A stretch of DNA of 64,000 nucleotides from Pseudoclavibacter terrae (GTDB lineage Bacteria > Actinomycetota > Actinomycetes > Actinomycetales > Microbacteriaceae): the NCBI RefSeq assembly GCF_008831075.1, contig NZ_WBJX01000003.1, forward strand, positions 248,001 through 312,000, in the 5' to 3' direction. How positions within the stretch are numbered: the stretch's first letter is position 1; every line of letters begins with the position of its first letter. Below the pieces are notes generated by a model. It ran no database searches. It saw nothing but the letters and a program-made list of their open reading frames with translations, and was not told where the DNA came from. A program made the position numbers and the translations under genes. Of this stretch, positions 37,735 to 53,232 are shown piece by piece.

Positions 37735-39171
37735 CTACTTTCCGGGCGCGGACTCGCCGAGTTCTTCAAGGATGCGGTTGAGATCGGCGATCGAGGCGAA
37801 GTCGACGACGATCTGCCCCTTGGTGCGGCGCAGGGTGACTTTGACGCGGGTGTTGAGCCGGTCGCCGAGCTGCTCGCCGATCTCGTCGAGGTAGCCGGTG
37901 AGACCGCTGCGTGGTTCCTTGTGGATGGGTGCCTGCGTGTCGGCCTTGGCGCTGCTCGATTTCGCGGCGGCTGCCTCAGCGGATCGAACGCTGAGGTCTT
38001 CGTTGACGATCTTGTCGGCGAGCTGCTGCATCGCCGCGGGTTCTCCGGCGCTGAGGATCGCGCGTGCGTGACCGGCTGAGAGGACTCCGGCCGCGACACG
38101 ACGCTGGACTTCCAGCGGGAGGCGGAGGAGGCGCAGCGTGTTGCTGATCTGTGGACGCGAACGGCCGATGCGTTCTGCGAGCACCTCTTGGGTGATGCCG
38201 AAGTCGTTGAGCAGCTGCTGGTACGCCGATGCTTCTTCGAGCGGGTTGAGCTGACTGCGGTGCAGGTTCTCGAGAAGCGCGTCACGCAGCATGACGTCGT
38301 CTTCCGTGTTCCGGATGACGGCGGGGATGCTCTCCAGGCCTGCGGCCTTCGTCGCGCGCAGGCGACGCTCGCCCATGATGAGCTCGAAGTCGGCCTCATC
38401 CCGCAGCGGATGGTCAGCAGGGATGGGGCGCACGACGATCGGCTGGAGCACGCCGAACTCCCGAACCGACGTGATGAGCTCCTGCAGCGCATCTTCGTCG
38501 AACTCCGTACGGGGCTGGTGCGCGTTCGGAACGATGCGGTTCGGGTCCAGAGCGCGCAGAGTGGCGCCGGGGATCTCAACGAGGCCGTCGGTGTCTTCGC
38601 CCTCGGTTGCGTCATCGAGGCCTTGGTTCTCGGCAGTTGCGGCGCCCGTCGCGGTTGCGGTGGTGTCGAGTGTTCCAGCCACTGGCGCCCCTGCATCGAC
38701 GTTCCTCGATTCAGCGGGGTCCGCCGATGCGGTTGTTCCGATCGTGTCGGCCGATACGGCGGCTTCGTCATCCACGGGCGGTGTGGTGGTGGTGCGCGCT
38801 TTCGATGCCGCTGTTGTTGCTGTCTTCTTTGCTGGTGCCTTGGCTGGCGCAGTCTTCCTGCCGGTACCGGACTTTGCCGTCGCGGCATCCACTGCGGGCA
38901 CCTTTGCTCGGGGAGCGCGCGCGGGCGTCGCCCGCTTGGGTGTGGCGGCTGCGGGCTTCTCCGAAACCGGAGTCGCCGTCGAGGTGTCTTCCGGCGCTCC
39001 GTCTGTGTTCGTCGCAGTCCCGGCTGCATTGGTGCGTGACGATGCAGTGGTTGGGTAGGCCGGTGTCTCGCTGTCGAAGAACACGTCTGAAGGGCGCGAG
39101 GCGCCTCTGTCTGAGGTCGGGATGAGAGCGCCGATGCCTCGTCCGAGTCCGGTGCGTTTCTTGGTTGCCAT
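37735..39171 (-). CDS. parB: Chromosome-partitioning protein ParB with long disordered linker
   Basis: The 478-residue CTP-dependent clamp loads at parS. The ParA-contact peptide RTGLGRGIGALIP lies at 6-18. An Ala/Thr/Lys/Pro-rich linker fills about 22-195, much longer than usual. The ParB domain follows from about 196: CTP-binding GERRLRATKAAG at 267-278, ENLHRSQLNP at 301-310 and a helix-turn-helix in GITQEVLAERIGRSRPQISN at about 325-344. The C-terminal dimerization segment ends the protein. Its ATG is five bases from the parA stop. The 14 matching sites lie just beyond parA. Confidence 0.97.
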   Translation of the reverse strand: MATKKRTGLGRGIGALIPTSDRGASRPSDVFFDSETPAYPTTASSRTNAAGTATNTDGAPEDTSTATPVSEKPAAATPKRATPARAPRAKVPAVDAATAKSGTGRKTAPAKAPAKKTATTAASKARTTTTPPVDDEAAVSADTIGTTASADPAESRNVDAGAPVAGTLDTTATATGAATAENQGLDDATEGEDTDGLVEIPGATLRALDPNRIVPNAHQPRTEFDEDALQELITSVREFGVLQPIVVRPIPADHPLRDEADFELIMGERRLRATKAAGLESIPAVIRNTEDDVMLRDALLENLHRSQLNPLEEASAYQQLLNDFGITQEVLAERIGRSRPQISNTLRLLRLPLEVQRRVAAGVLSAGHARAILSAGEPAAMQQLADKIVNEDLSVRSAEAAAAKSSSAKADTQAPIHKEPRSGLTGYLDEIGEQLGDRLNTRVKVTLRRTKGQIVVDFASIADLNRILEELGESAPGK

Positions 39172-39176
39172 GGTGG

Positions 39177-40100
39177 TTATGCTCCTCGCTGGGCGATTTC
39201 GACGGCCGCTTCGAGATACGCGATCGCGCCGGTCGAGGTTGGTTCGTGGGAAATGATGGTCTTGCCGAAGCTCGGGGCTTCGGAGATACGCACGGTGCGC
39301 GGTATGGCGACCTTGAGCGTTTCTTGCGGGAAGTGCTCGCGAACGTCAGCGGCGACTTCCTGGGAGAGGTTGGTTCGCCCGTCGTACATCGTCAGCAGGA
39401 TCGTGGTCAGCCGAAGCTGCGGGTTGAGGTCCTGTGAGAGCAGGTTGAGGTTCGAGATCAGCTGACCGAGTCCTTCGAGTGCGTAGTACTCGCACTGGAT
39501 GGGGATGAGCACCTCTCGAGCGGCGACGAATGCGTTGATCGTCAGCAGCCCGAGGGAGGGAGGGCAGTCGATGAAGATGTAGTGGAACTCTTGCTCAGTG
39601 CCGGTGGTCTCGTCCAGGAGGGCGGCGATGGCCTGTCGGAGTCGGTAGTCGCGCTTGTCGAGGTTGACGAGCTCGATCTCTGCGCCTGCGAGGTCGAGCG
39701 TGGCCGGGACGCACCACAGCGTGTCGATATCAGGGCACTGTTGCATCAGCTCACGCAAGGGCTCGCCGTCGAGGAGCGCTTCGTATGTGCCGGCGGTCTC
39801 TCCGCGGTGTTCGATGCCAAGGGCGGTGGAAGCGTTGCCCTGGGGGTCCAGGTCGATCACCAGGACCCGGGCACCGAGGGTAGCGAGAGCCGCGGCCAGA
39901 TTGACGGCGGTTGTCGTCTTACCCACGCCGCCCTTCTGGTTGGAAATCGTGAAGATCCGCGTGTGGTTGGGGAGGGGAACTTCCTTCTTGACCAGGCTTT
40001 TCCTGCGCTGGTTCAGCTCAGACAATGCTGTCGCGAGCGGTGAATCGTCGAGCCCCGACGCTGGTGGCGTCGCTGCGTCGCCGGCAGATGAAGCTTTCAA
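39177..40100 (-). CDS. parA: Chromosome-partitioning ATPase ParA
   Basis: The 307-residue Walker-type ATPase moves ParB-bound origins. Deviant Walker A KGGVGKTT is at 56-63, DLDPQGN at 83-89 and Walker B YIFIDCPPSLG. The 45-residue N-terminal extension is polar. The start is TTG at 40100, with GGGAG upstream; no internal ATG gives a better N-terminus. It is co-transcribed with parB. The first perfect parS lies 106 bases upstream of its start, so ParB may affect its own operon. Confidence 0.96.
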   Translation of the reverse strand: MKASSAGDAATPPASGLDDSPLATALSELNQRRKSLVKKEVPLPNHTRIFTISNQKGGVGKTTTAVNLAAALATLGARVLVIDLDPQGNASTALGIEHRGETAGTYEALLDGEPLRELMQQCPDIDTLWCVPATLDLAGAEIELVNLDKRDYRLRQAIAALLDETTGTEQEFHYIFIDCPPSLGLLTINAFVAAREVLIPIQCEYYALEGLGQLISNLNLLSQDLNPQLRLTTILLTMYDGRTNLSQEVAADVREHFPQETLKVAIPRTVRISEAPSFGKTIISHEPTSTGAIAYLEAAVEIAQRGA

Positions 40101-40205
40101 GAATGCTCTCCCTCAAGTAGACGTCTCAATTGTGCCTCACATCCGCAATGGAAACGCGGCGACGCTCAGAGTTGTGGAATCGCCGAGTCTGGTCGCGCCG
40201 TGGCA

Positions 40206-40219
40206 GTTTCACGTGAAAC
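40206..40219. promoter_or_regulatory. parS site 1 (perfect)
   Basis: GTTTCACGTGAAAC, 106 bases upstream of the parA start. A ParB site this close may also influence parAB expression. Confidence 0.9.
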
Positions 40220-40538
40220 ACGGGCCTCGACCTCAACTTCAGCCACAGGGTTCGGTTGTCAAGTTTCAAGTTGGTCCGGTGAGCAGAGTCAACACGGTCG
40301 GTGCTCTCTCGTCCCCTTCAAAGTCGCGGAGATTCTGAAGGGGTGAAGAGCTGAGCTCACCTCTCACGGGAGGTCGGTCGGCGGTGAGAGTTTTCTCCGT
40401 CGAATATCCGGCGTACTTGGTCCTTGTCGCGTGCGAGTACCTCGCCTGACTCCGGGCGGCGACGCAAGACTCCCGGTCGGACTAAAGATCCCAGCACCCG
40501 CCAGCAAGAGTCGAAGCGGGGCTGGTTAGCTCACCGTC

Positions 40539-40552
40539 GTTTCACGTGAAAC
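40539..40552. promoter_or_regulatory. parS site 2 (perfect)
   Basis: GTTTCACGTGAAAC, extended to a 16-base palindrome by C before and G after. Confidence 0.9.
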
Positions 40553-40914
40553 GGGAGGCAATCGTACGAGTACTACGATCATGCCCGCGCCGGTGTTGCT
40601 GAAGCAGGCACCCTCTCGGAATGACAAGGTGTCTCTGCGTAGGGCGTACCGCGAGGGACTGGTCTCAACGGTCAGGATGAACGAGACTCGAACTGGATTG
40701 TGGACGGCGCTCTCATCCCTTTCCATCTGCGAAGCTGGTTTTCCACTCGCGCCCCGGACGGGAGCCGCCCGGAATGTGGAACAGCGACCGGCGGTCACGG
40801 GCCCCGCACCCGCACCGCCGGCCTGAGTAGGCGTGGCCGCGTGAACAGAGAGGTGAGCAGATGGGGCACCAAGTCCGGTGGGGCGGTCTTTTGGCCCCGT
40901 GGCTTGCGCCTAGA

Positions 40915-40928
40915 GTTTCACGTGAAAC
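40915..40928. promoter_or_regulatory. parS site 3 (perfect)
   Basis: GTTTCACGTGAAAC, about 376 bases from site 2. Confidence 0.9.
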
Positions 40929-41108
40929 AAGCCCGAAAGCGCAACTTGACGAGACACTTCTCTTCCGAAGCCACGGTCGATGCGTACGGACTCCGCATGG
41001 CCCCAAGCCCTTCGCACTCCACGCCTGGGCTCCACGTAGCGTCAGAAGTCGAGGTTCGGCAGCTCCACGAACACGCCTGCCCTCCCGAACGTATCGCCAC
41101 GACCGGGC

Positions 41109-41122
41109 GTCCCACGTGAAAC
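41109..41122. promoter_or_regulatory. parS-like site 4 (two changes)
   Basis: GTCCCACGTGAAAC; both changes are in the left half-site. Binding would be weaker than at perfect sites. Confidence 0.55.
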
Positions 41123-41721
41123 GCCTGATGTAGGAGCGCGGATGCGGAACGCACTGCGCAATGCAAGCTAGCGGTAGATCCCCGCGCCAAGATCGTGAGC
41201 TTGCCTGACCGAATCGGGGATCGACGACACTCGACATTCAAGGATCGAGCGACCCAGCAAGTTTCCGAACCCCGTGTCAGCCCGGTGCATTTCGCGACTG
41301 CGAACCACGCTTGCGCTCAGGCCGCTAATCGCTTGTGATAGCCCGCAACTGCTTGCATAGACTGCCACATTAGTTGCGCCACGGAGCCGCGAAGCAACAG
41401 AGTCATCAGAGTCATTCAGCACGTTGTGCCCAACACGCAACACCTCAAATCACCATCTGTGCTCCAGGGCGGGGATCTACGTCACGTCCCCCCAGTGGCA
41501 TGAACGTATCGAGCGGTTCACCCGAGCCACTCCCGGCTCACTTGGCCCGACTTCGGCATGAGCCACCTGAAGCTCGCTCCGCTCCGGACAGGGAGTGATG
41601 GGATGAAGTCTTGCCCGGCCCCGCGCCCCGCTCAATCTTCGCGCTCAGATCGGGATCAAGACGGAGAGATGACCGCAGGCCTCAGCATCGCATTCACCGA
41701 GGGACAACCCGATGTGACCTC

Positions 41722-41735
41722 GTTCCACGTGAAAC
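41722..41735. promoter_or_regulatory. parS site 5 (one change)
   Basis: GTTCCACGTGAAAC, the complement of the variant at 42477, 45163 and 46210. Confidence 0.75.
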
Positions 41736-42476
41736 ATGTCGAGCATCGCGCACTGTGAAGTCCTGCGTAGGGGAAAGCAAGACCGCTGGTAGCCGCAGAG
41801 GAGCGTGGGTCGATGCGTGCGAACTCATGCCAACTCATGAGCCGCCATTTTGCACTCCCTGCCGTGACCTCGTACTTCCAGTCCAGTCAGTCCTCTACTT
41901 CCGTGCCGCGCTGCCTGGCCCGTGGCCCTCGCGCGATACGGCACACACATTGGCGTGTCTAGTTCACACACCACCAGCCGGCCCCTCGTTGGCTCACCCC
42001 AGGGTTCGTGCAGGTCTGCACGTGCTCTCGCGGTTCGATTCGCGTCAACTAGTACTCGCTCTTTTGACTGCACGGGCTCCGATCGCACACCTGGAGCGGC
42101 TCGCGCTGGACGTGCGTGAGCGAGATCTCACCACTGGCACCATGGTCGGTCGGCAATCCCGGTCTGGATGGCAACAGCACTCTCTAGACCAATGACTCTC
42201 CCGCCTCCCACGGATGAGGTGGCGTGGCGTGTAGTGGGTGGAGTGTGGCAGGAGCAGCGTGTCGGAGAAGGGATAGGTCGGTGCGCGCCAGTCACAGTCA
42301 GCCTCTGTCTGGTTGTGCGCGCCTCCTCCTGTCTTGATGCCGGCCGCACAGTGCCTCAGTCGCGAAGGAAGTTCGCACCGATCACGCACCCCACGGGCCA
42401 GCCCTCGAGAGCATGGAGAACTCTTCTGCCCTATCAAGGCAAGATCAGACGACGCGGGTCTGCCTGTATTGAATCC

Positions 42477-42490
42477 GTTTCACGTGGAAC
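42477..42490. promoter_or_regulatory. parS site 6 (one change)
   Basis: GTTTCACGTGGAAC, flanked by C and G like several perfect sites. Confidence 0.75.
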
Positions 42491-43162
42491 GCGTTGCCTC
42501 GCCTACGTCGTCCCGGCGGCGTGCCAACGCTGAGTCGTGCAGCGATATTGCTCTCAGGATCGGAGTCGGCCACTGTGTGGGCCGGAAAACGTCGAGCGGG
42601 GGGAAGTGGCCGATACAGTTCTGCGGGTGTCCCTAACCGTAGTCAACCGGAGCGGAGGCCCAACCCCATCTCACACCCAGCACTTGGCCCACCCATCCAG
42701 ACGAGTTGAGACTCCTTGGATAGTCCCGACTGTCCGGCATGCGGGTGTCTTGTGCCCCTCCCCAGTTCTGGCAGGTGCCAGAAAGACCCATGACATGACC
42801 CCTGTCACCAAACGGGTCCGTGGATGGCTACCTAGACCGGCGGCTGTCGTGGGACAGTTCATTCGAACGCCCCACGATGAGAAGACAGCGGCCGCTTGCG
42901 CAACTGCCCCTTCTACTGGATACCTCGGCGCCGCCAATGCTCCGCGACCTACATGGGTTCGAAGGAGTTCCTGGGCCCTGCCGGGCCGGACCCCGTCTGG
43001 GCTCAATGTGCAGAGTGGGGAGTCACACACAACCCGCGTGCACCAAGCCCTGTCAGGTCGCGCCCCGCCGTTTCGTGGAGGCTCAAATTCAACAGATGAT
43101 CACCGCGAAGTTCCACTGAAACGTCGGGCAAACGGGGACCCCAACAAGATGTGTGAGCCGTC

Positions 43163-43176
43163 GTTTCACGTGAAAC
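43163..43176. promoter_or_regulatory. parS site 7 (perfect)
   Basis: GTTTCACGTGAAAC with C/G flanks, about 135 bases before the hexamer array. Confidence 0.9.
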
Positions 43177-43311
43177 GGGCACCCGGAACCCGGGCGCGCG
43201 TGCACGCGTTCGAGCCTGGGCCTGGGCACCGGCTTGTGGCGTATGAGAAGGCCCAAGCCGGTGGAACGGGACCGCCCACAGCTCTAACCCCGCTCCGCCC
43301 CACGCCTCGGT

Positions 43312-43401
43312 CAGCGTGAGCGTCAGCGTCAGCGTCAGCGTCAGCGTCAGCGTCAGCGTCAGCGTCAGCGTCAGCGTCAGCGTGAGCGTGAGCGTGAGCG
43401 C
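43312..43401. repeat. Hexanucleotide tandem array (CAGCGT/GAGCGT)
   Basis: Fifteen 6-base units in register. The centre is ten perfect CAGCGT units (43324-43383), with GAGCGT variants on both sides. In the three frames it would encode short Ser-Val or similar repeats, but no gene context supports translation. Between 43425 and about 43500 the sequence continues as decayed hexamers built on AGACGT. Confidence 0.9.
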
Positions 43402-43647
43402 AGGCCTGCGCATGGTGTGGAACGGCGACGCAGGCCCAGACGCGAATGCAGACGTAGACATAGACGTAGGTGTAGTTGTAGACCCAGGCGCGAGTGTGCA
43501 CGTGGCGTGGGGCGTCGTGGGGCGTCCATCAGAAGACGTCGTCGACGCAACCGGACGTGGACGCGGACGTGGAGCCTGCCGATCCAAGCTCAGCAGAGCA
43601 ACGGCAACACGTGGATCCTCGGCGGACTGAGGGACGAGGGGCTAGTC

Positions 43648-43661
43648 GTTTCACGTGAAAC
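43648..43661. promoter_or_regulatory. parS site 8 (perfect)
   Basis: GTTTCACGTGAAAC, first of three sites within 133 bases. Confidence 0.9.
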
Positions 43662-43701
43662 AGAGACACGGACCACCGCCGTGCGTGCTCTGAAGGAGGT
43701 C

Positions 43702-43715
43702 GTTCCTCGTGAAAC
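43702..43715. promoter_or_regulatory. parS-like site 9 (two changes)
   Basis: GTTCCTCGTGAAAC; one change hits the central CACGTG core. It lies between two perfect sites. Confidence 0.45.
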
Positions 43716-43766
43716 GGCAACCCGTCCCGGGGTTCCGCAACGTGAAGACGAATCGCGCGAAGTGCC

Positions 43767-43780
43767 GTTTCACGTGAAAC
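43767..43780. promoter_or_regulatory. parS site 10 (perfect)
   Basis: GTTTCACGTGAAAC with C/G flanks, 119 bases from site 8. Confidence 0.9.
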
Positions 43781-44144
43781 GGTAAGTCAACACCAACTCC
43801 CGTTTGTGAGAAAGAGAACTGGCCTGGTGACAGTCTCGGGCATCATTCCGAGCGCCGCCGACGCAGGTGCACAAGCAACAGCTGTCGCAGACGGAAGCAG
43901 CCTCAGAGTTCATGAACCTCGGCGACAGAGATGGGCCCAACGACGGACCTCATCCTGAAGCAAACCGAGGGACCCGCTAGATGAACTGAACTCTCAACTG
44001 CGCGCGCGTCGAGAGAACTGCGCCACCCTGAGTGCTGAACTCTGCAACGGGCCACGGGCTCGGCAGGAGGCCAGATCTCTCGGACCCTCCGTCTCACAGC
44101 TCACGAGTCGCAAGTCAGAACTCACACCTGAGCTCGCGGCTGCG

Positions 44145-44245
44145 GCCCGCTGCTCCCGGCTAGCTGCTCCCGGCTAACTGCTCCCAGCTCACGGCTCACG
44201 GCTCACGGCTCACGCTTCACAGCTCACGACTCACGCATCACTCCC
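44145..44245. repeat. Degenerate tandem repeats (GCTGCTCCCGGCTA-like, then CTCACGG)
   Basis: Three imperfect copies of a CTGCTCCCGGCTA-like unit are followed by about seven imperfect copies of a 7-base CTCACGG-like unit (CTCACGG, CTCACGC, CTCACGA). No coding function is apparent. Confidence 0.75.
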
Positions 44246-44770
44246 CGCTAGCAGCTTACGTAGCGTTGGCGACGGGGAAGCGGCCGTGCCAGGGGTAGCG
44301 GTCGCAGTAGTTGGAGTGGGAGCCACAGCAGCACAGCGCAGCAGGGGTTGGAGCAGATGGAGCGATAGCGGGCACCTCTACGCTCCCACAGTCGCAGTGC
44401 AATACCTCTGTCTGCTTCTCCCTCCACACTGGGACAACGGGTAGCGGCTCTCGTCCCACCGCCGCAGTCATTCCAATATCTTCAGATTGCCCCGCTCATC
44501 GAGCGCAACTTGGCAGTCAAATAAACATGACGAGGCCGGGCGCCCGTCACAACGCCTGGTTGTCCGCGGTTGGATTAGCTGTATTGACAGCGGGCAGCGA
44601 TCCAGAATCGGCCGGCGGCTAGGCACAACTGGCGTTCCGCGCTCTGCATCTGCCGTGTCTCGATTGGTCTAACCCACTCCCGCTGGCCAATACGTTCCAA
44701 GTCAGGGCGGGGCCCATCCATTCGTGCGGCCCTACGTACCAGCGTTTGGCAAGGGACGCCGCCTGATCGA

Positions 44771-44784
44771 GTTTCACGTGAAAC
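44771..44784. promoter_or_regulatory. parS site 11 (perfect)
   Basis: GTTTCACGTGAAAC, about 1 kb from site 10. Confidence 0.9.
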
Positions 44785-44878
44785 GATGATCGTTCCGCGC
44801 ACGTAGTTCGATGCACGTGTGCGTTGGGATCGGCGTTGGCATCGCGGGCTGGGCGTAACGGACGTGAGCGGCCTGCAG

Positions 44879-44910
44879 CACTCTGCGTTGCGCACACTCT
44901 GCGTTGCGCA
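44879..44910. repeat. Perfect 16-bp tandem duplication
   Basis: CACTCTGCGTTGCGCA occurs twice with no gap (44879-44894 and 44895-44910). It looks like a recent slippage event in non-coding DNA. Confidence 0.9.
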
Positions 44911-45162
44911 GCCCGCCGGAGCGCCATGCAACAATGCAACAGTCCAAGCAAGACCGGGAAGTCCGTGGTGCACACCGATCAACACTGAGCCGATCCCAAC
45001 ACCGTCACTTGGCGGGACACCGTAAAGCCACGTCGCTCGCTACCCACGTTTCGATCACCAGGATGCGCACGGCAATTGGTACTCCGGCGCGCTAAGCAGT
45101 GCACTCTTCCTGCTCCTTCGCCCGCCGCTCGAGGCTGGGGGCCGCGCTATGGGCGAGTGTCC

Positions 45163-45176
45163 GTTTCACGTGGAAC
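45163..45176. promoter_or_regulatory. parS site 12 (one change)
   Basis: GTTTCACGTGGAAC with C/G flanks, 82 bases from site 13, which is the same variant in the opposite orientation. Confidence 0.75.
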
Positions 45177-45244
45177 GGCGCGAATGTTGGGTGATCAGAG
45201 CGACTACCACTCGCCCCAGCGATCGGAGTCGCCAGTCATGTTCT

Positions 45245-45258
45245 GTTCCACGTGAAAC
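45245..45258. promoter_or_regulatory. parS site 13 (one change)
   Basis: GTTCCACGTGAAAC, inverted relative to site 12. Confidence 0.75.
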
Positions 45259-46209
45259 CCAATCCGCGAGCTCGGGCAACGACATGACCGGATCCTGAGC
45301 GCGTGGGTGCCTCTTGGGCACGCGTGAGTCCCTAGCCCCTTCCCTCCCGGGGTCACCCAACCTCATCAACTTCGGACAGTGTCATCGCACACGCGTTCCC
45401 GTTGTGGCCCGCTCATCGCTCGTCGACCGAAATTTTGGTCCTTACGCGACCTTTCATCCGAGAAACCCGCGTATTACGTAAAGCAGCCTCACACGGGCCA
45501 CGGACTACGGGACCCACCTGAGCGGCGTGAGACGCCCGGACGATGTTTGGTCGACTACGCACCACCTGCGGCGCTGCGTACTCATAACAACGATCGCGCC
45601 CCTCCTTGACTCTTCATCGTGCGTGAACTGAGTGCCTGGGTCACTCCATGTCGGCCGCCCCAGCGAATGAGCAAGGAACTGTTGCCCGCCACGACAACGC
45701 AGATTCGCACATCTCGAAAATCACGGCATACGGACATTCCACACACTCTTAACGTGGGAGAGACAGACACTCCCCACTCCGTGTGGGTCCGGGGCGGTCA
45801 GACACGGCAAGCGAACTGGGTGGGCCCACCCCCAGATCGAGCCTTAGAGCTCCGGCTGCCAACCACGCTCAGTGCATGTGGGGAAGCTGTGCCCGGTGTC
45901 TGCGACGGAGCTGCACTCCGGCCTCGACGATGTTTGGGTGGCGAGAACCTGTTGTGCACACACGCGCCCATGTCTTGTCAGCTCTACCCAGCCTCGGATT
46001 CTCGACACAACATCGCCAGACCAGACCCTCAGAGCAATGCAGCTCAAGAGGCCACGAATAGCTCCAGGTCGCTGGCGCGTAGAGCGGATGTCAGCTGCGC
46101 GACCCTTCAAGACGCAACTGTGAGACTCCAAGGGGGACGCGGGTGCGAGGAATCTCTGGCGTTCCCGCAATTTCTCGATGATCGCACGTGGTGGATGACT
46201 CTGCGACGT

Positions 46210-46223
46210 GTTTCACGTGGAAC
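46210..46223. promoter_or_regulatory. parS site 14 (one change)
   Basis: GTTTCACGTGGAAC, 160 bases past the rsmG stop; it is the site nearest to oriC. Confidence 0.75.
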
Positions 46224-46384
46224 GAGAACAGAAACGCCTCTTTGCCCACGAAAATCGCCAACAATGAGCAGAGAGCTGCTCTCTGGGCAGTCGAGACAGC
46301 GCTACGAACCGGGGTTCAAGCCTTCTTGCATCAAGCTATATCGATACAAGTCGAAATTGCAGCCGAGGCCGCGCAGCGATCGAC

Positions 46385-47023
46385 CTAGTCGACCGTTGCG
46401 CGGATGACCCGCGTGGCCTCAGTATCGAGGTTCTCGCCAAGCTCCTCGACTCGAACATCAGTGAGGCCGAATTTTCGGATCGCCTTGCTGGCCTTCTCGA
46501 TCTCTGCTTCAGCCGATCGTCCCTTGAGGAACACGAGTTCGCCGCCGGAGCGAACAAGAGGCACCGTGATCGGGATGAGCTTGCTGAGCGCCGAGACGGC
46601 CCGCGCGGTCAGCTGATCGAAGGTGAACTCATCGTGCACCTCCTCGGCTCGCGCACGGCGCACCTGCACGTTCGTGAGAGCGAGGGCATCCACCTCACGC
46701 TGCAACCACTCTGTACGCCGCTCCATGGGCTCAATCAGAACGAAGTTCACGTCGGGACGCGCAATAGCCAGCACGAGGCCGGGAAGACCGGCGCCTGAAC
46801 CGATATCTCCGACGAGCCCGGGACGCAGCAAAGGAGCCATGAGGACTGAGTTGACGATGTGTCGAGTCCAGAGGCGGGGGTATTCGAGCGGACCGACGAG
46901 CCCGAGCTGCTCACCGTATTTCGCGAGATCAAACGTGAACGCGCGAGCGAGTTCGATCCGGTCCTCGAAGAGCACCTTCGCGATAGCCGGCTCGACCTCG
47001 AGTTCAATCGGGTGGTCAGTCAT
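46385..47023 (-). CDS. rsmG: 16S rRNA (guanine-N7) methyltransferase RsmG (GidB)
   Basis: The 212-residue methyltransferase modifies a conserved guanine of 16S rRNA near the decoding centre, using S-adenosylmethionine. It shows the RsmG signature RLWTRHIVNSV, SAM-binding GDIGSGAGLPGLVLAI and VRRARAEEVH. ATG at 47023 was chosen because MTDHPIELE fits the family; a longer frame upstream adds 15 residues without homology. It is usually followed closely by parA; here 6.3 kb of parS-rich DNA intervenes. The upstream intergenic region holds DnaA boxes. Confidence 0.95.
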   Translation of the reverse strand: MTDHPIELEVEPAIAKVLFEDRIELARAFTFDLAKYGEQLGLVGPLEYPRLWTRHIVNSVLMAPLLRPGLVGDIGSGAGLPGLVLAIARPDVNFVLIEPMERRTEWLQREVDALALTNVQVRRARAEEVHDEFTFDQLTARAVSALSKLIPITVPLVRSGGELVFLKGRSAEAEIEKASKAIRKFGLTDVRVEELGENLDTEATRVIRATVD

Positions 47024-47149
47024 ACCGCATGCCCCTCTCGCAGCGTGAATGTGTCGACGCAGTCGCAAATCGCGAGCGCGGTCAGTTCATGCCAGTTTGA
47101 CACGATCGGTTTCTTGACAAGACGGGACAGCCAGGATCGCCGGTCTGTC

Positions 47150-47294
47150 TGTGGATAAGTCTGTGCATAACAGCGAAGCGACGCCGGTAGCATGGCCTTC
47201 TCCGAGGAAAGCGACGCTGACCTGGGGTTTTACCCGTGGGGGCCATTCCGCCCCAATTCCCCAGATAATCGCCTGTGGAAACTACTGTGGATAA
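47150..47294. promoter_or_regulatory. DnaA-box cluster upstream of rsmG
   Basis: Perfect boxes TGTGGATAA lie at 47150-47158 and 47286-47294. Near matches are at 47162-47170 (TGTGCATAA) and 47274-47282 (TGTGGAAAC). All read in the same orientation. They occupy the 280-base gap between jag and rsmG. Confidence 0.65.
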
Positions 47295-47303
47295 CTCCGC
47301 GCG

Positions 47304-47813
47304 TCAGGCTGAGGGTGCCGGGCGGATGACCGTGTGACGCTCACGCGCTTCGCCTTCCGACTCAGACACGTAGCCGCGCTCGGAGACGATGTCGTGCACG
47401 ATCTTGCGTTCGTACGAGGACATCGGGGGGAGGGCGGCGGACGAGGCGCCTTCCTCGATGCGGGTGATTGCCCGGTCGACGAGGCCGGCCAGCTCGCCCC
47501 GTCGCGCATCGCGCGAACCGCCGATGTCGAGGATGAGCCTTGAGAATTCACCCGTCTCCGCCTGCACGGCGAGGCGAGTCAGGTGCTGCAGCGCATCCAC
47601 AGTCTCCCCATCAGCCAGCTTCGAGAGGTTCGACTCTCCGTCGGAGTTCACCGAGATGTACGTGCGCGACTCACGAACCTCGATATCGAGGTCACCATCC
47701 ACATCGCTGATGTCGAGCAGCTCTTCGAGGTAGTCGGCGGCGATGTCCCCGTCGTCGCGGATATCCGACGTCTCTGCGTCAGCGGGGACGGCCTCGGAGG
47801 TTGCTTCAGTCAT
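47304..47813 (-). CDS. jag: Jag/KhpB-like KH-R3H RNA-binding protein
   Basis: The 169-residue protein has an N-terminal acidic region, a KH-like domain (DLDIEVRESRTYISV, then ALQHLTRLAVQ) and a C-terminal R3H domain (MSSYERKIVHDIVSERG, then EARERHTVIRP). The Jag N-domain present in Firmicutes is absent. It binds RNA and affects cell division or envelope in other bacteria. It lies 43 bases after yidC, the conserved order. Confidence 0.93.
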   Translation of the reverse strand: MTEATSEAVPADAETSDIRDDGDIAADYLEELLDISDVDGDLDIEVRESRTYISVNSDGESNLSKLADGETVDALQHLTRLAVQAETGEFSRLILDIGGSRDARRGELAGLVDRAITRIEEGASSAALPPMSSYERKIVHDIVSERGYVSESEGEARERHTVIRPAPSA

Positions 47814-47856: not shown

Positions 47857-48867
47857 CTACTTCTTCGCGGGCGGGGTGCTCTTGCCAGATGCGCCACCTG
47901 CGCCGGGCTTCCCGCCCGTTGCCTTCTTCTTGGCTCGGTTCTTCGAGACGGGCTGAGCACGCTGAGCCGGCTGCTGCACGGGGGCCTCCACGATGACGTT
48001 CCCCTTGGAGTCCTTGCGCTCTGGCTCAACCCACTTGCCGCGAGCCTTCAGGCGCTCCTCGCGAGCCTTCGCAGCCTCAGAGCCGGGAGTGGGCATGTTG
48101 CGGATGATGATGTACTGCTGACCCATGGTCCAGAAGTTCGAGATGAGCCAGTAGGTCATGACACCCAGCGGGAACATGACACCGGACACGAGGAACGTGA
48201 GCGGCAGGATGTAGAGCAGCATCTGCTGCTGGCGGTACATCGGCGACTCCTTGGTCGCCTGCGACACGTTCTTCGAAGTGATCTGCTTCTGCGTGATGAA
48301 CTGCGAGACCGTCATGACGACGACCATGACACCGGCGAGGATCTGGACGCCGACGTTGCCATCGTTGTTGAGGAACGTCGCACTCAGGGGAGCGCCCCAG
48401 ATATCCGCCTGCGAGAAGGACGTCGCGAGCTCCTGGTTCAGCGCTCCAACACCGACCGTGTTGTGCTGTGCCCCGTTGAGCACGGAGAAGAGACCGAAGA
48501 AGATCGGCATCTGCACGAGCAGCGGCCAGCAGCCCGCCATCGGGTTCGAGCCAGTCCGCTGGTAGACAGCCATGGTCTCGCGACGCATGGCCTCCATCGA
48601 GAACTGGTCGCGCTTGCCCTTGTACTTGTCCTGGATCTTCTTGATCTCAGGAGCGACATCCATCATCGCGCGCTGGGACTTCACCTGCTTCACCATGAGA
48701 GGGATCATGGCGGAGCGGACGACGAGCACCAGGCCGAGGATGGCGAGGATCCACGTCCAACCATCAGTGCCGTTGAGACCGAGCGTCGTCCACAGCGTGT
48801 GGAAACCGACCAAGATGAGCTCGATGACCCATTTGATCGGCCACAAGATGGTTCCGAGGATATCCAT
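47857..48867 (-). CDS. yidC: Membrane protein insertase YidC
   Basis: The 336-residue insertase places proteins in the membrane alone or with SecYEG. Five hydrophobic segments are visible, with RSAMIPLMVKQVKSQRAM containing the conserved hydrophilic-groove Arg, and NPMAGCWPLLVQMPIFFGLF. As in other actinobacteria it lacks the large periplasmic domain of E. coli YidC. The Lys/Pro/Ala-rich tail (about 60 residues) probably contacts ribosomes. It lies between yidD and jag. Confidence 0.96.
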   Translation of the reverse strand: MDILGTILWPIKWVIELILVGFHTLWTTLGLNGTDGWTWILAILGLVLVVRSAMIPLMVKQVKSQRAMMDVAPEIKKIQDKYKGKRDQFSMEAMRRETMAVYQRTGSNPMAGCWPLLVQMPIFFGLFSVLNGAQHNTVGVGALNQELATSFSQADIWGAPLSATFLNNDGNVGVQILAGVMVVVMTVSQFITQKQITSKNVSQATKESPMYRQQQMLLYILPLTFLVSGVMFPLGVMTYWLISNFWTMGQQYIIIRNMPTPGSEAAKAREERLKARGKWVEPERKDSKGNVIVEAPVQQPAQRAQPVSKNRAKKKATGGKPGAGGASGKSTPPAKK

Positions 48868-48888: not shown

Positions 48889-49200
48889 TTAAGTTCCGCT
48901 AGTGCCCAGGACGACGAATCCGCGAGCAGTAGTGGTGGTGGTTCGGTGTTCTGGCTCAGGCACGTCGTCAATGCCTCCAGCAGCCCAGGGGTGGCAGCGA
49001 ACGAGTCGTCGCCCGGTGAGGAAGCCGCCCCGGAGGACGCCATGAACCTGCACAGCTCTTAAAGAGTACGCGGAGCAGCTGGGGTGATACCGGCAGACGT
49101 CACCGTAGAGCGGTGAGATCACCAAGCGGTACGCGTTCAGCAGTGCGATGACCACGTTCCGGGGGACGAGCGCGGCTCGTCGAACGGCACGCACGGTCAT
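48889..49200 (-). CDS. yidD: Membrane protein insertion efficiency factor YidD
   Basis: The 103-residue protein contains LLNAYRLVISPLYGDVCRYHPSCSAYSLRAVQVHG (in pieces: NAYRLVISPLYG, CRYHPSCSAYSLRAV) and RRLVRCHPWAAGG, the three conserved cysteines of YidD. The Thr-rich C-terminal extension of about 20 residues is unusual. The ATG overlaps the rnpA stop (ATGA), so translation is coupled. Confidence 0.95.
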   Translation of the reverse strand: MTVRAVRRAALVPRNVVIALLNAYRLVISPLYGDVCRYHPSCSAYSLRAVQVHGVLRGGFLTGRRLVRCHPWAAGGIDDVPEPEHRTTTTTARGFVVLGTSGT

Positions 49201-49586
49201 CTCCCCGACTTCGAGGCACGAAGATCCGCGTCGCTGGGCGCAGCGATTCGACGCACGCCTCGCAACGACCCGAATCTCGCACGCTCGCGCAGATCATCGA
49301 ACCCGAGCTCCGCCGCTTCCGGATGAACCCGATACACGACGTCGAAGCCAGGACCGATCTCAGGGAGCAGCTCCCTGGAGACCGCCTTGAGGCGCCGACG
49401 AATGCGATTGCGCACAACAGCCACACCTACCCGCTTCGAGACAATGAAGCCGAAGCGGGTAGGTGTGTCATGTTGTTCGCGCTCGCGCACGCTGACCGTG
49501 ATTCCTCGAGCACCTACACGAACTCCGCGTCGAACGATGGCCTGATAGTCATCGCCCTTGGTGACGCGGTTCGCGTAGGGAAGCAA
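49197..49586 (-). CDS. rnpA: Ribonuclease P protein component
   Basis: The 129-residue basic protein joins the RNase P RNA to mature tRNA 5' ends. It has LPYANRVTKGDDYQAIVRRG at the start and the signature GFIVSKRVGVAVVRNRIRRRLKAV. A TTG at 49586 was chosen: it follows the rpmH stop by four bases and gives the family N-terminus. An ATG upstream would overlap rpmH. No clear ribosome site is present, so coupling to rpmH translation is likely. Confidence 0.93.
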   Translation of the reverse strand: MLPYANRVTKGDDYQAIVRRGVRVGARGITVSVREREQHDTPTRFGFIVSKRVGVAVVRNRIRRRLKAVSRELLPEIGPGFDVVYRVHPEAAELGFDDLRERARFGSLRGVRRIAAPSDADLRASKSGR

Positions 49587-49590
49587 GAAG

Positions 49591-49728
49591 CTACGCGGAG
49601 AGCTCGGTGCGACCCTTGCGGCGACGAGCCGAGAGGATCGCGCGACCCGCACGGGTGCGCATGCGCAGGCGGAAGCCGTGGGTCTTCGCGCGGCGGCGGT
49701 TGTTTGGCTGGAAAGTACGCTTCGACAT
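49591..49728 (-). CDS. rpmH: Ribosomal protein bL34
   Basis: The 45-residue very basic protein begins [20 protein letters not shown] and ends [11 protein letters not shown], a full-length L34. GGAG lies five bases before the ATG. It heads the rpmH-rnpA-yidD-yidC-jag operon, divergent from dnaA. Confidence 0.98.
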
Positions 49729-50007: not shown

Positions 50008-50147
50008 CTCACCGGGTAGATCACAATGACTTGCGCACCAGTGCCACACGGCCGGTGCGTTGACCATGCTGCGAGTGTGCAGCCAAGAAGACGCGGTCCG
50101 CAGAGATGCGGTCTCGTGAAGTACAGAGGGACGGGGGGAGTGCTTCG

Positions 50148-51614
50148 GTGGCCGACCCGGTTTCGGAGACGTGGCAGACGCTGCTCTCCACACTGCGTGA
50201 AGACGATCGCGTTCCCGCTTCCCTCCTCGGGTTCCTCGGACTCGTCGAAGCCAAGGGAGTGATGAGCGGCGCGCTGCTGCTCGAAGTCCCCAACGACATG
50301 ACCCGCACGATGATCGAAACGCGTGCGCGCGTGCCGATGCTCGCGGCGATCGCGGAGCTCGACGAGTCGGACATCAAGACGTTCGCGGTGCTCGTCAACC
50401 CGGATGCGGCTCCGCGAGCATCCGTCAGCGACCCACTCGACTCGCACGACTACATCGAAGTCGCTCCGCCGCGGGCAGCGCCCGCCCCGACCAGCTCGGT
50501 GACCGTCGTCGAAGCAGAATCCGTCGGACACCATCCGTCGTCAGATCAAGGCGCGCGCACGCAGCCCGACCCTGAGTCCCGACTCAACCCGCGGTACACG
50601 TTCGACAACTACATCATCGGCGGGTCGAACCGATTCGCGCACGCCGCGGCCGTCGCCGTCGCCGAGGCGCCGGCGCGTTCATACAATCCGCTGTTCGTCT
50701 ACGGCGGCTCCGGACTCGGCAAGACGCACATGCTCCACGCCATCGGCAACTACGCCGAGTCGATCTACCCGGGCATCCAGGTCAGGTACGTCTCGAGCGA
50801 AGAGTTCACGAACGACTTCATCAACTCCATCGCGAACAACCGGACGCAGTCGTTCCAGGCGCGCTACCGCGACAACGACATCCTGCTGATCGACGACATC
50901 CAGTTCCTCCAGGGCAAGGACTCGACGCAGGAAGCCTTCTTCCACACGTTCAACACCCTGCACGAGCACAACAAGCAGGTCGTCATCACGAGCGACCTCC
51001 CCCCGAAGCAGCTGACCGGCTTCGAAGACCGGATGCGCTCCCGATTCGAGTGGGGCCTCATCACCGATGTGCAGTCCCCCGATCTGGAGACGCGCATCGC
51101 GATCCTCCGCAAGAAGTCCCAGGTCGACAACCTCCTCATCCCGGACGACGCTCTCGAGTTCATCGCCGCGAGGGTCTCGTCGAGCATCCGTGAGCTCGAG
51201 GGCACGCTCATCCGCGTCACCGCGTACGCGAACCTGAACGGCGAGAAGGTCGATCTCGCCCTCGTGTCGACCGTGCTGAAGGATCTCGTGTCCGATCAGG
51301 ACACTGGCGTCGTCTCACCCGTCGACATCATCAATCGGACGGCTGCGTACTTCCAGCTGACAGTCGACGACCTCTACGGATCCTCCCGATCGCAGGCGAT
51401 CGCCACGAGTCGGCAGATCGCCATGTACATCTGCAGAGAGATGACGAACCTGTCTCTTCCCAAGATCGGGCAGCTGTTCGGTGGGCGAGACCACACGACG
51501 GTGATGTACGCGCACCGCAAGATCACGAAGCTCATGACCGAGCGCCGCGACGTCTACAACCAGGTCACAGAGCTCACAGCGCGCATCCGCCAGAACGGAA
51601 ACGGACGCTCCTGA
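50148..51614 (+). CDS. dnaA: Chromosomal replication initiator DnaA
   Basis: The 488-residue initiator starts GTG with GGGGGAG seven bases upstream. Domain I (about 1-90) contacts DnaB and other factors, and a variable linker follows. Domain III is the AAA+ ATPase: NPRYTFDNYIIGGSNRFAHA, Walker A GGSGLGKT at 186-193 and Walker B LLIDDIQFL. Domain IV binds DnaA boxes (SRQIAMYICREMTNLSLPKIG, in part, and GGRDHTTVMYAHRKI). The linker is short compared with Streptomyces. It is transcribed toward oriC. Confidence 0.98.
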   Translation: MADPVSETWQTLLSTLREDDRVPASLLGFLGLVEAKGVMSGALLLEVPNDMTRTMIETRARVPMLAAIAELDESDIKTFAVLVNPDAAPRASVSDPLDSHDYIEVAPPRAAPAPTSSVTVVEAESVGHHPSSDQGARTQPDPESRLNPRYTFDNYIIGGSNRFAHAAAVAVAEAPARSYNPLFVYGGSGLGKTHMLHAIGNYAESIYPGIQVRYVSSEEFTNDFINSIANNRTQSFQARYRDNDILLIDDIQFLQGKDSTQEAFFHTFNTLHEHNKQVVITSDLPPKQLTGFEDRMRSRFEWGLITDVQSPDLETRIAILRKKSQVDNLLIPDDALEFIAARVSSSIRELEGTLIRVTAYANLNGEKVDLALVSTVLKDLVSDQDTGVVSPVDIINRTAAYFQLTVDDLYGSSRSQAIATSRQIAMYICREMTNLSLPKIGQLFGGRDHTTVMYAHRKITKLMTERRDVYNQVTELTARIRQNGNGRS

Positions 51615-51623
51615 GCACCCTCC

Positions 51624-51666
51624 AGCTCCGCATCACGGGCCCTCGTGCACGGATGCGGAGCTTTTC
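51624..51666 (+). terminator. dnaA terminator
   Basis: AGCTCCGCATC at 51624-51634 pairs with GATGCGGAGCT at 51652-51662 and is followed by a T-rich tract (CTTTTCTT). It lies 9 bases after the dnaA stop. Confidence 0.85.
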
Positions 51667-51668
51667 TT

Positions 51669-52092
51669 GCCCTCAGGCCCTGTGGATAACTTGTGGACTG
51701 TGGAATCGACACGCGAGCACGGACTGTGGAAAACGCGCTCGGCGCTGTGGAGTCCGAGAAGTTGTGCACCCCAGTGCTCGTCAGCGTGCACAGGGCGTCC
51801 ACCGCTCCGCCACAACTTACATTTTTGTAGTTCCCATGCGGGCGCTGGGGAGTACTGAGTTATCCACAGTGTGCACAGCTGTTAATACGATGATGACAAG
51901 AAATCTATTGATATTGGGCGAATCGACGACATTGGTGAACGGTGGTCGGCCGGCCCTCCGTGGACTGGTATTTTCGCGTGCGCGACGACGAGCTCGTGCC
52001 GTGGGAAGCAGCACAGGATGCTCTGACGCTCGGGCGCAACACACCGAATCTGGGCGGCTACCATTGGGTCATTCCAACGAGAGGAACGCCTA
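51669..52092. other. Origin of replication (oriC)
   Basis: Between dnaA and dnaN lie perfect DnaA boxes at 51681-51689 (TGTGGATAA) and 51860-51868 (TTATCCACA) in opposite orientations. Several relaxed boxes lie between, including 51699-51707, 51725-51733 and 51746-51754. An AT-rich stretch at about 51880-51916 is the likely unwinding element. No gene is supported here. The dnaN promoter must also lie in this segment. Confidence 0.9.
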
Positions 52093-53232
52093 GTGAAGTT
52101 TGTGGTCAACCGTGACGTCTTCAGCGATGCGGTGTCGTTTGTCGTCAAGCTTCTGCCTCAGCGCCCGACCCTCCCCATCCTCAGCGGTGTTGTCGTCGAG
52201 GTCGGCGACGCAGGGGTCACGCTCTCGTCATTCGACTACGAGGTCTCCAGCCGCACCAGCATCGACGCTGATGTCCAGGAGCCAGGAGCCGTCCTCGTGC
52301 AGGGACGCCTCCTCGCTGACATCGCGAATCGACTTCCTCAGGCTCCCGTCGAGCTGAGCCGCGACGACTCCGGAGTTGTCATTCGCTGCGGCAGCGCGTC
52401 GTTCCACCTGCCGACGATGCCCATCGAGGAGTTCCCGAGCCTGCCCGTCGTCGAAGGCGCGAGCGGTTCCATCGCGGGTGACGTGTTCTCGGAGGCGATC
52501 TCCCAGGTCGCGGTCGCAGCCTCCCGCGAAGACGTCGCCCCCGTGATCACGGGTGTGAACCTCTCGCTGCAGGCCGATTCGATGAGCCTCGTCGCGACCG
52601 ACCGCTACCGTGTCGCAGTGCGGACCATCGAATGGCAGAGCTCCCTCACGGAGACCGAGACAGCTCTCGTACCAGCCAAGACGCTCGCCGAGGTCGGCAA
52701 GTCGCTCGGCAGCTCCGGTGAGATCACGATCACGCTCGTCAAGGACGACATCCGAGAGCTCATCGCCTTCTCCGCTGGCAACAAGACCGTCACCTCGCTC
52801 CTCATCAAGGGCAACTTCCCCGCAGTGGAGCGCCTCTTCCCCGCTGAGACGCCGCACTACGCAGTGCTCACGGTCAGCGACATCGTCGACGCGGTTCGCC
52901 GCGTGCAGCTCGTGCTCGAACGCGAGGCGGCACTGCGCTTCACGTTCACGACCGAGGGACTCCACCTCGAAGCGCTCGGCAGCGAGCAGGCTCAGGCAAG
53001 CGAGAACCTCGACGCAGTCCTGCACGGCAACGACATGGTCGTCTCGCTCAAGCCGCAGTTCCTGCTGGACGGAGTCGGCGCCATCCACTCGCCGTTCGTG
53101 CGAATCGCCTTCACGAACTCCGAGAACCCCAACAAGCCGGGACCCGTGCTGCTCACGAGCCAGACCTCGCGCGACGAGGGCGAGTCGACGAACTACCGCT
53201 ACCTGCTGCAGCCGAATCTGCTCATGCGGTAA
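52093..53232 (+). CDS. dnaN: DNA polymerase III beta subunit (sliding clamp)
   Basis: The 379-residue clamp has three repeated domains and encircles DNA to hold polymerase. It begins KFVVNRDVFSDAVSFVVKLL and includes GVVVEVGDAGVTLSSFDYEV and SLVATDRYRVAVR. The start is GTG, with GAGAGGA about eight bases upstream. It precedes recF by three bases in the standard order. Confidence 0.98.
   Translation: MKFVVNRDVFSDAVSFVVKLLPQRPTLPILSGVVVEVGDAGVTLSSFDYEVSSRTSIDADVQEPGAVLVQGRLLADIANRLPQAPVELSRDDSGVVIRCGSASFHLPTMPIEEFPSLPVVEGASGSIAGDVFSEAISQVAVAASREDVAPVITGVNLSLQADSMSLVATDRYRVAVRTIEWQSSLTETETALVPAKTLAEVGKSLGSSGEITITLVKDDIRELIAFSAGNKTVTSLLIKGNFPAVERLFPAETPHYAVLTVSDIVDAVRRVQLVLEREAALRFTFTTEGLHLEALGSEQAQASENLDAVLHGNDMVVSLKPQFLLDGVGAIHSPFVRIAFTNSENPNKPGPVLLTSQTSRDEGESTNYRYLLQPNLLMR

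Follow-up and report, generated by a model that had tools for sequence, protein, structure and literature searches.

In the 64-kb stretch of Pseudoclavibacter terrae DNA analysed here (the window), parA and rsmG are separated by an interval of 6284 bp that carries 14 sites identical or similar to the parS palindrome. The two genes stand in a run of genes that reaches from parB to gyrA, and the interval is considered here as a probable centromere of predicted ParB-loading sites. It contains the following features, which come from the motif search unless another basis is given:

40101-46384, no strand: parS island without coding signal between parA and rsmG, 6284 bp, G+C 0.62 (motif search, relatives' loci, periodicity, codon model, Pfam)
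40206-40219, no strand: parS, exact, within the 152 bp upstream of parA that are kept 95% identical in the nearest relative (motif search, alignment)
40539-40552, no strand: parS, exact
40915-40928, no strand: parS, exact
41109-41122, plus: parS-like, two changes; one-change site at the aligned place in the nearest relative, L102 (motif search, relative's locus)
41722-41735, plus: parS, T4C variant
42477-42490, minus: parS, T4C variant
43110-43122, plus: parS relic, one base missing (read by eye)
43163-43176, no strand: parS, exact
43648-43661, no strand: parS, exact
43702-43715, plus: parS-like, two changes
43767-43780, no strand: parS, exact
44771-44784, no strand: parS, exact
45163-45176, minus: parS, T4C variant
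45245-45258, plus: parS, T4C variant
46210-46223, minus: parS, T4C variant

At up to three mismatches, GTTTCACGTGAAAC had 14 matches in the window, all within 40206-46223, against a chance expectation of 1.28 for the whole window; none of 100 shuffles reached 14. Seven sites are exact, five have one change and two have two changes. An earlier sequence-only reading of this DNA had given exactly these counts and coordinates and had noticed no other close match in the window, which the search confirmed. The genome-wide motif search that it proposed covered 3,912,938 bases in 11 contigs (99% complete) and revealed no comparable parS density elsewhere: 12 sites with at most one change were found, 12/12 inside the parA-rsmG interval. 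Two-change sites comprised the two in the array and two lone matches elsewhere (the reversed-pattern control gave two). All five one-change sites carry T-to-C at position 4 (T4C) or its mirror image. We take this position to be one left open in the Bacillus subtilis parS consensus, and for this reason 12 of the 14 sites were counted as canonical. The palindrome of 14/16 bp fits the parS consensus, and the density of canonical sites is about one per 0.5 kb.

A further sequence, GTTCCACTGAAAC, is a parS relic of 13 bases. Half-sites of the GTTCCAC type outside full sites numbered four in the interval (one of them the relic) and 14 in the rest of the window, with 1.5 expected in the interval by length, although these counts are small. 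The base preceding parS is C or T in 156/184 half-sites of the genus. No convincing helical phasing of the sites was detected (187 spacings, six trial periods, p 0.03-0.54), and the strongest spacer 8-mers in a search for extra motifs all derived from one overlapping GGTGCTCG-like sequence.

The interval is flanked by these genes and the likely origin:

37735-39171, minus: parB, 478 amino acids, with GLGRGIGALIP tail motif, linker of about 194 residues, ParB_N, HTH_ParB and ParB_C (Pfam)
39177-40100, minus: parA (AAA_31 / CbiA; Pfam)
46385-47068, minus: rsmG (GidB; Pfam)
47304-47813, minus: jag, R3H-domain protein (domain search)
47857-48867, minus: yidC (domain search)
49197-49652, minus: rnpA (domain search)
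50106-51614, plus: dnaA (named from translation)
51615-52092, no strand: dnaA-dnaN intergenic region, the likely oriC; exact DnaA-box motifs at 51681 and 51860, plus one near match
52093-53232, plus: dnaN (named from translation)
After dnaN, plus: recF, gyrB and gyrA (named from translations)

Both partition genes are domain-complete (AAA_31 in parA; ParB_N, HTH_ParB and ParB_C in parB, above cut-off). All 12 canonical sites lie within 12 kb of the dnaA-dnaN intergenic region, the putative origin, at distances of 5.4-11.4 kb.

Coding, RNA and origin signals

The three-base periodicity of G+C averaged 0.10 inside the interval (maximum 0.29) and 0.36 outside. Of the eight genes used to train the codon model, seven reach +0.40 to +0.60 per codon, and rnpA stays at +0.04. 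Every one of the 60 frames of at least 50 amino acids in the interval had a negative score, and ten long frames had no Pfam match at E<=1. The interval thus has neither the codon bias nor the known domains of protein-coding DNA, in agreement with the sequence-only reading, which had seen no frame with the codon bias of real genes. The frames are slightly more numerous and longer than in shuffles (60 vs 49, standard deviation 5; longest 260 vs 198 amino acids, standard deviation 43), an excess which we put down to simple repeats. The simple repeats with the highest copy numbers among those tabulated were GTCAGC (about 15 copies, 43310-43400) and a GCTCACG-type repeat of 7/14 bp (about ten copies, 44152-44241).

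No Rfam match at gathering score was found in the interval, so a reading as RNA is unsupported. A phage or plasmid origin of the island is likewise unsupported, as blastn gave no match among 50,697 phage and 72,556 plasmid records. The promoter scan of the interval found none where 0.9 was expected and is hence uninformative; terminator-like elements numbered six against 4.5 expected. With up to one mismatch allowed, no TTATCCACA-like box, and thus no DnaA-box cluster, occurs within 40101-46384, which leaves a reading as origin unsupported. This motif, which we take to be the DnaA box, was found, among other places, in dnaA-dnaN, rpmH-dnaA and rsmG-jag. The rsmG-jag region has three box-like motifs, outside dnaA-dnaN, at 47150, 47162 and 47286. 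The G+C content of the interval is lower than that of the left part of the window.

Persistence of sites and turnover of spacers

The nearest relative among the loci compared is L102 (genome G007; ParA 99%, RsmG 97%). Its flanks align with those of the window end to end (93.2% over 6.0 kb and 92.4% over 6.9 kb) and their intergenic regions are 82-96% identical (one 33-bp region 100%). These matches reach into the interval by about 65 bp at the rsmG side and 152 bp at the parA side. In the remainder, alignment was limited to 50 bp at 84% and 213 bp at 66%; the interval measures 6284 bp in the window and 6307 bp in L102. The five parA-proximal sites lie at closely similar distances in the window and L102 (119/119, 452/444, 828/795, 1022/1019 and 1635/1647), and 8/14 sites are within 40 bp of an L102 site, against a chance expectation of 2.9 (0.14% of 5000 random draws did as well). 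Each of the five collinear sites persists, with no more than two changes in the window and no more than one in L102; at 28% divergence, the chance of staying within one change would be about 6% per site.

The homology of the five spacers nearest parA to those of L102 is still detectable (z 3.2 to 14.1). Their divergence as estimated by simulation is about 0.35 for the first and at least 0.45 for the others, compared with 0.18-0.29 at the fourfold sites of rsmG, parA and parB; indels were simulated at one for every ten substitutions, and the fourfold sites may evolve more slowly under codon bias. Judged by this one genome pair, the spacers likely change faster than neutral sequence. The islands of L100 and L101, from more distant genomes, are likewise unalignable to that of the window. 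Between the window and three genus relatives, hardly anything aligns apart from parS and some 150 bp on the upstream side of parA. The spacers of four genomes can hardly be aligned, and these genomes retain 13-18 sites of no more than two changes. The eight genus loci contain 42 exact and 50 one-change sites. The change is T4C in 41 of the 50 and another base at position 4 in four more (45/50 at this position), and the inner CAC/GTG is invariant in these 92 sites, which exclude those with two or more changes. The comparison of the interval in relatives, suggested by the sequence-only reading as a check, revealed sites that persist and spacers that diverge. The parS sites look selected and the spacer DNA free to change.

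Islands and ParB linkers across the family

The family was identified as Microbacteriaceae by the DNA similarity of its genomes to a named Homoserinibacter locus (82% over 19 kb) and, more weakly, to loci of Microbacterium and Leucobacter. RsmG was found in 384/398 family genomes. We analysed 106 regions and the window, from 79/85 genera (g16, g29, g66, g67, g81 and g85 were left out); the first 60 regions were chosen among the best matches to the window's RsmG, and the sample is therefore not random. Loci L125 and L184, with no parA downstream on the stretch, were dropped, which left 105 scored loci, and the tree has 112 rows, made up of these and seven named loci (L017, with no parB, was dropped). 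An island was defined as a place with at least five canonical sites. By this cut-off 23 rows have an island and 89 do not. Thirteen islands are in the rsmG-parA gap and seven in the jag-rsmG gap (gaps of at least 1.5 kb), and three are downstream of parB at a distance of up to 4 kb, possibly with genes in between.

An island is present in 8/10 genomes of the window's genus, and in the eight with any GTTYCACGTGAAAC site every such site is in the one locus. The two others (G004 and G008) have no RsmG match and a ParA of only 42-44%; the locus is probably absent from these assemblies and may be hard to assemble or have been lost in binning. In the sister genus, 8/8 sampled genomes have the island. 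The two genera form a clade of 16 genomes (support 100) with islands in 16/16, 1.8-8.4 kb long with 5-18 canonical sites. They are on one side of rsmG in nine genomes and on the other in seven, and on the tree the second position calls for three or more changes. The 89 family loci outside the clade have a median of three canonical sites in the fetched stretch and a maximum of eight, with none in 3/89.

Microbacterium gubbeenense DSM 15944 (L034, contig NZ_AUGQ01000021.1) has 13 canonical sites in a 7.7-kb gap, and 14 sites with at most one change in about 4.6 kb adjoining parA. Its placement with the clade was rejected by the approximately unbiased test (p 0.002, with the group defined after inspection of the tree). 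Coding-like stretches occupy part of the interval in L034 and L199. Tandem units were found in two relatives: L110 has a 151-bp unit in 4.3 copies, with 19/22 site spacings of 125-159 bp, and L109 a 170-bp unit in 3.2 copies. L102 has no such row of tandem parS units. Conservation over the 23 units of L110, which were cut around parS, was 0.96 in parS columns and 0.50 in the remainder. In L110 (genome G260), near-regular parS-bearing units of about 150 bp, with parS conserved and the rest decayed, were seen over about 3.6 kb upstream of rsmG. Interval length was correlated with site number in the first 66 family loci (rho 0.75, uncorrected for kinship).

In the ParB of the window (37735-39171, minus), the GLGRG motif and the core are joined by an unusually long, A- and T-rich linker of low complexity, about 194 residues in length. 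This linker measures 115-256 residues in 16/16 clade genomes and 33-78 residues in 86/88 other family genomes measured, the other two being L191 (110) and L194 (162), which have no island. L194 (genome G079) has a single parS in the fetched stretch, a counter-example to a link between tail and array. The linker is 179 residues in M. gubbeenense and 51 in Microbacterium sp. MYb54 (L028), which has five gap sites in 1.3 kb. Over 111 rows, long tail and island occur together in 17 and are both absent in 84. Counting against a link are six islands with short tails (L104, L126, L133, L142, L143 and L149) and four long tails without an island by the cut-off (L191, L194, L033 and L029; L029 has six sites in 1.2 kb). 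Among five independent pairs, one agrees with the link, none oppose it and four show no difference, which is not significant. The association of a long ParB linker with islands is suggestive, a lead and not a result.

The interval as a predicted centromere

The interval is very probably a chromosomal ParABS centromere with an island of predicted ParB-loading sites beside oriC. The expanded centromere next to oriC which the sequence-only reading had proposed is well supported by the 12/12 good sites, the intact parA and parB, the proximity to oriC, the lack of coding signal and the sites outlasting their spacers. ParB is reported to load at parS, slide as a clamp dependent on cytidine triphosphate (CTP), form a complex and act with SMC; SMC collisions become more likely with multiple loading sites, a danger that may be reduced where these are tightly clustered, and DNA-bound proteins hinder ParB (PMC10387095, PMC7083940, PMC8357415, PMC6238139). 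A gene-free array would thus offer ParB a long unobstructed loading track beside oriC. To judge from its lack of genes, the island would also be poor in transcription. ParB dimers would load at the 12 canonical sites, close with CTP and slide into the spacers, and one dense partition complex would form 5-11 kb from oriC, which ParA would move and which would load SMC. The array may have grown by local tandem duplication of parS-bearing segments together with drift, while selection would retain a number of good sites and exclude genes and promoters, leaving the spacers free to change.

It is very improbable that the interval is mostly gene debris or what remains of a mobile element, with parS sites there by happenstance. 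Its low coding signal, its simple repeats and the slight excess in number and length of chance frames would fit such DNA, but the ten long frames match no Pfam domain, the phage and plasmid records gave no match, islands recur beside rsmG throughout the clade, and the sites outlast the spacers, with their number maintained across species. The absence of DnaA boxes makes it hardly credible that the interval is a replication origin, part of one or a DnaA-control region, despite its nearness to origin genes and its lower G+C content; moreover, the box-bearing dnaA-dnaN, rpmH-dnaA and rsmG-jag regions are 82-96% conserved, whereas the interval is not. Long intergenic regions can harbour small RNAs, but conserved small RNAs or riboswitch-type elements, with parS secondary, are just as hard to credit here, given the negative Rfam search and the little that aligns with the three genus relatives except parS and the parA-proximal 150 bp.

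It also appears rather unlikely that the array is parS but its extra sites are neutral, tandem duplication outpacing decay without benefit beyond one or two sites. The one-change sites are mostly of one tolerated type, unlike random decay, and both the 13-18 sites persisting among nearly unalignable spacers and the five collinear sites argue for retention. The tandem units of L110 and L109, the median of three sites outside the clade (none in 3/89 genomes) and the sufficiency of one site in Corynebacterium glutamicum (PMC7083940) would accord with neutrality.

Several observations weigh against the expanded centromere itself. The window's own island has no tandem repeats of parS units, only short simple repeats, and is not a satellite-like array of head-to-tail parS-bearing units. 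In both C. glutamicum (PMC7083940) and P. aeruginosa (PMC4368675) one parS site can be enough, which does not account for the 12-18 sites kept here. Binding of F-plasmid ParB is reported to be undisturbed by active transcription and disturbed by proteins at promoters (PMC6238139), which weakens freedom from transcription as a reason for the island. Sites with three or more mismatches failed to bind in C. glutamicum (PMC7083940), and the two-change sites of the island may be non-binding. A broader reading, which we regard as possible but doubtful, would make the island a bacterial counterpart of a fast-evolving 'regional' centromere: a gene-free parS island with spacers replaced faster than flanking synonymous sites and several switches of side at rsmG, co-evolving with a disordered ParB tail of several-fold greater length, such that the size of the array and how far ParB reaches to ParA would be mutually tuned, and with at least two origins (this clade and M. 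gubbeenense).

The label 'undescribed system' given by the sequence-only reading is too strong, since clusters of 10-24 parS sites near the origin have been published for Myxococcus xanthus and C. glutamicum. M. xanthus has 22-24 parS sites, 22 of them within 3 kb about 4 kb upstream of parA and near oriC, and its ParB shifts cluster DNA in vitro (PMC3899335, PMC3778016). This dense cluster near oriC and parA resembles the island, but belongs to another phylum and has another consensus, TGTTCCACGTGGAACG, and the portions of these accounts available to us describe no turnover or change of place. The actinobacterium C. glutamicum likewise has ten good sites in one oriC-proximal cluster (9/10 intergenic, ParB binding shown by chromatin immunoprecipitation sequencing; PMC7083940), but this is described as spread over 35 kb, 73 kb from oriC, and not as one gene-free island. 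Caulobacter crescentus has clustered sites (five bound and two putative), which share the loading-and-sliding model but do not make up a long array (PMC5815017, PMC10387095). Streptomyces coelicolor is also an actinobacterium with many origin-proximal parS sites (22; PMC5815017). Eight other Streptomyces loci have an rsmG-parA gap of 0.35-0.5 kb with 1-2 sites. The S. coelicolor sites are presumably scattered over a much larger region than the island. Our literature search found no such island reported for Microbacteriaceae among the papers listed, although the parS survey of Livny et al. 2007, to which several of the cited papers refer, may contain an earlier mention. Clustered parS is thus already known. 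The features that appear new here are an island without genes, its occurrence across one family, its relocation and the turnover of its sequence.

The expansion of centromere regions has been called an interesting question (PMC5815017). The island bears on how bacterial centromeres expand and on why many parS sites are kept when one can suffice. Microbacteriaceae provide a natural series, in which loci alike in other respects carry between 0 and 18 canonical sites, positions are switched and ParB tails vary in length; site number, spacing, spacer sequence and tail length are therefore separately testable. Fast-changing centromeres beside slowly changing genes are a known puzzle in eukaryotes, and the gene-free, fast-changing island beside slow genes is a bacterial parallel to it.

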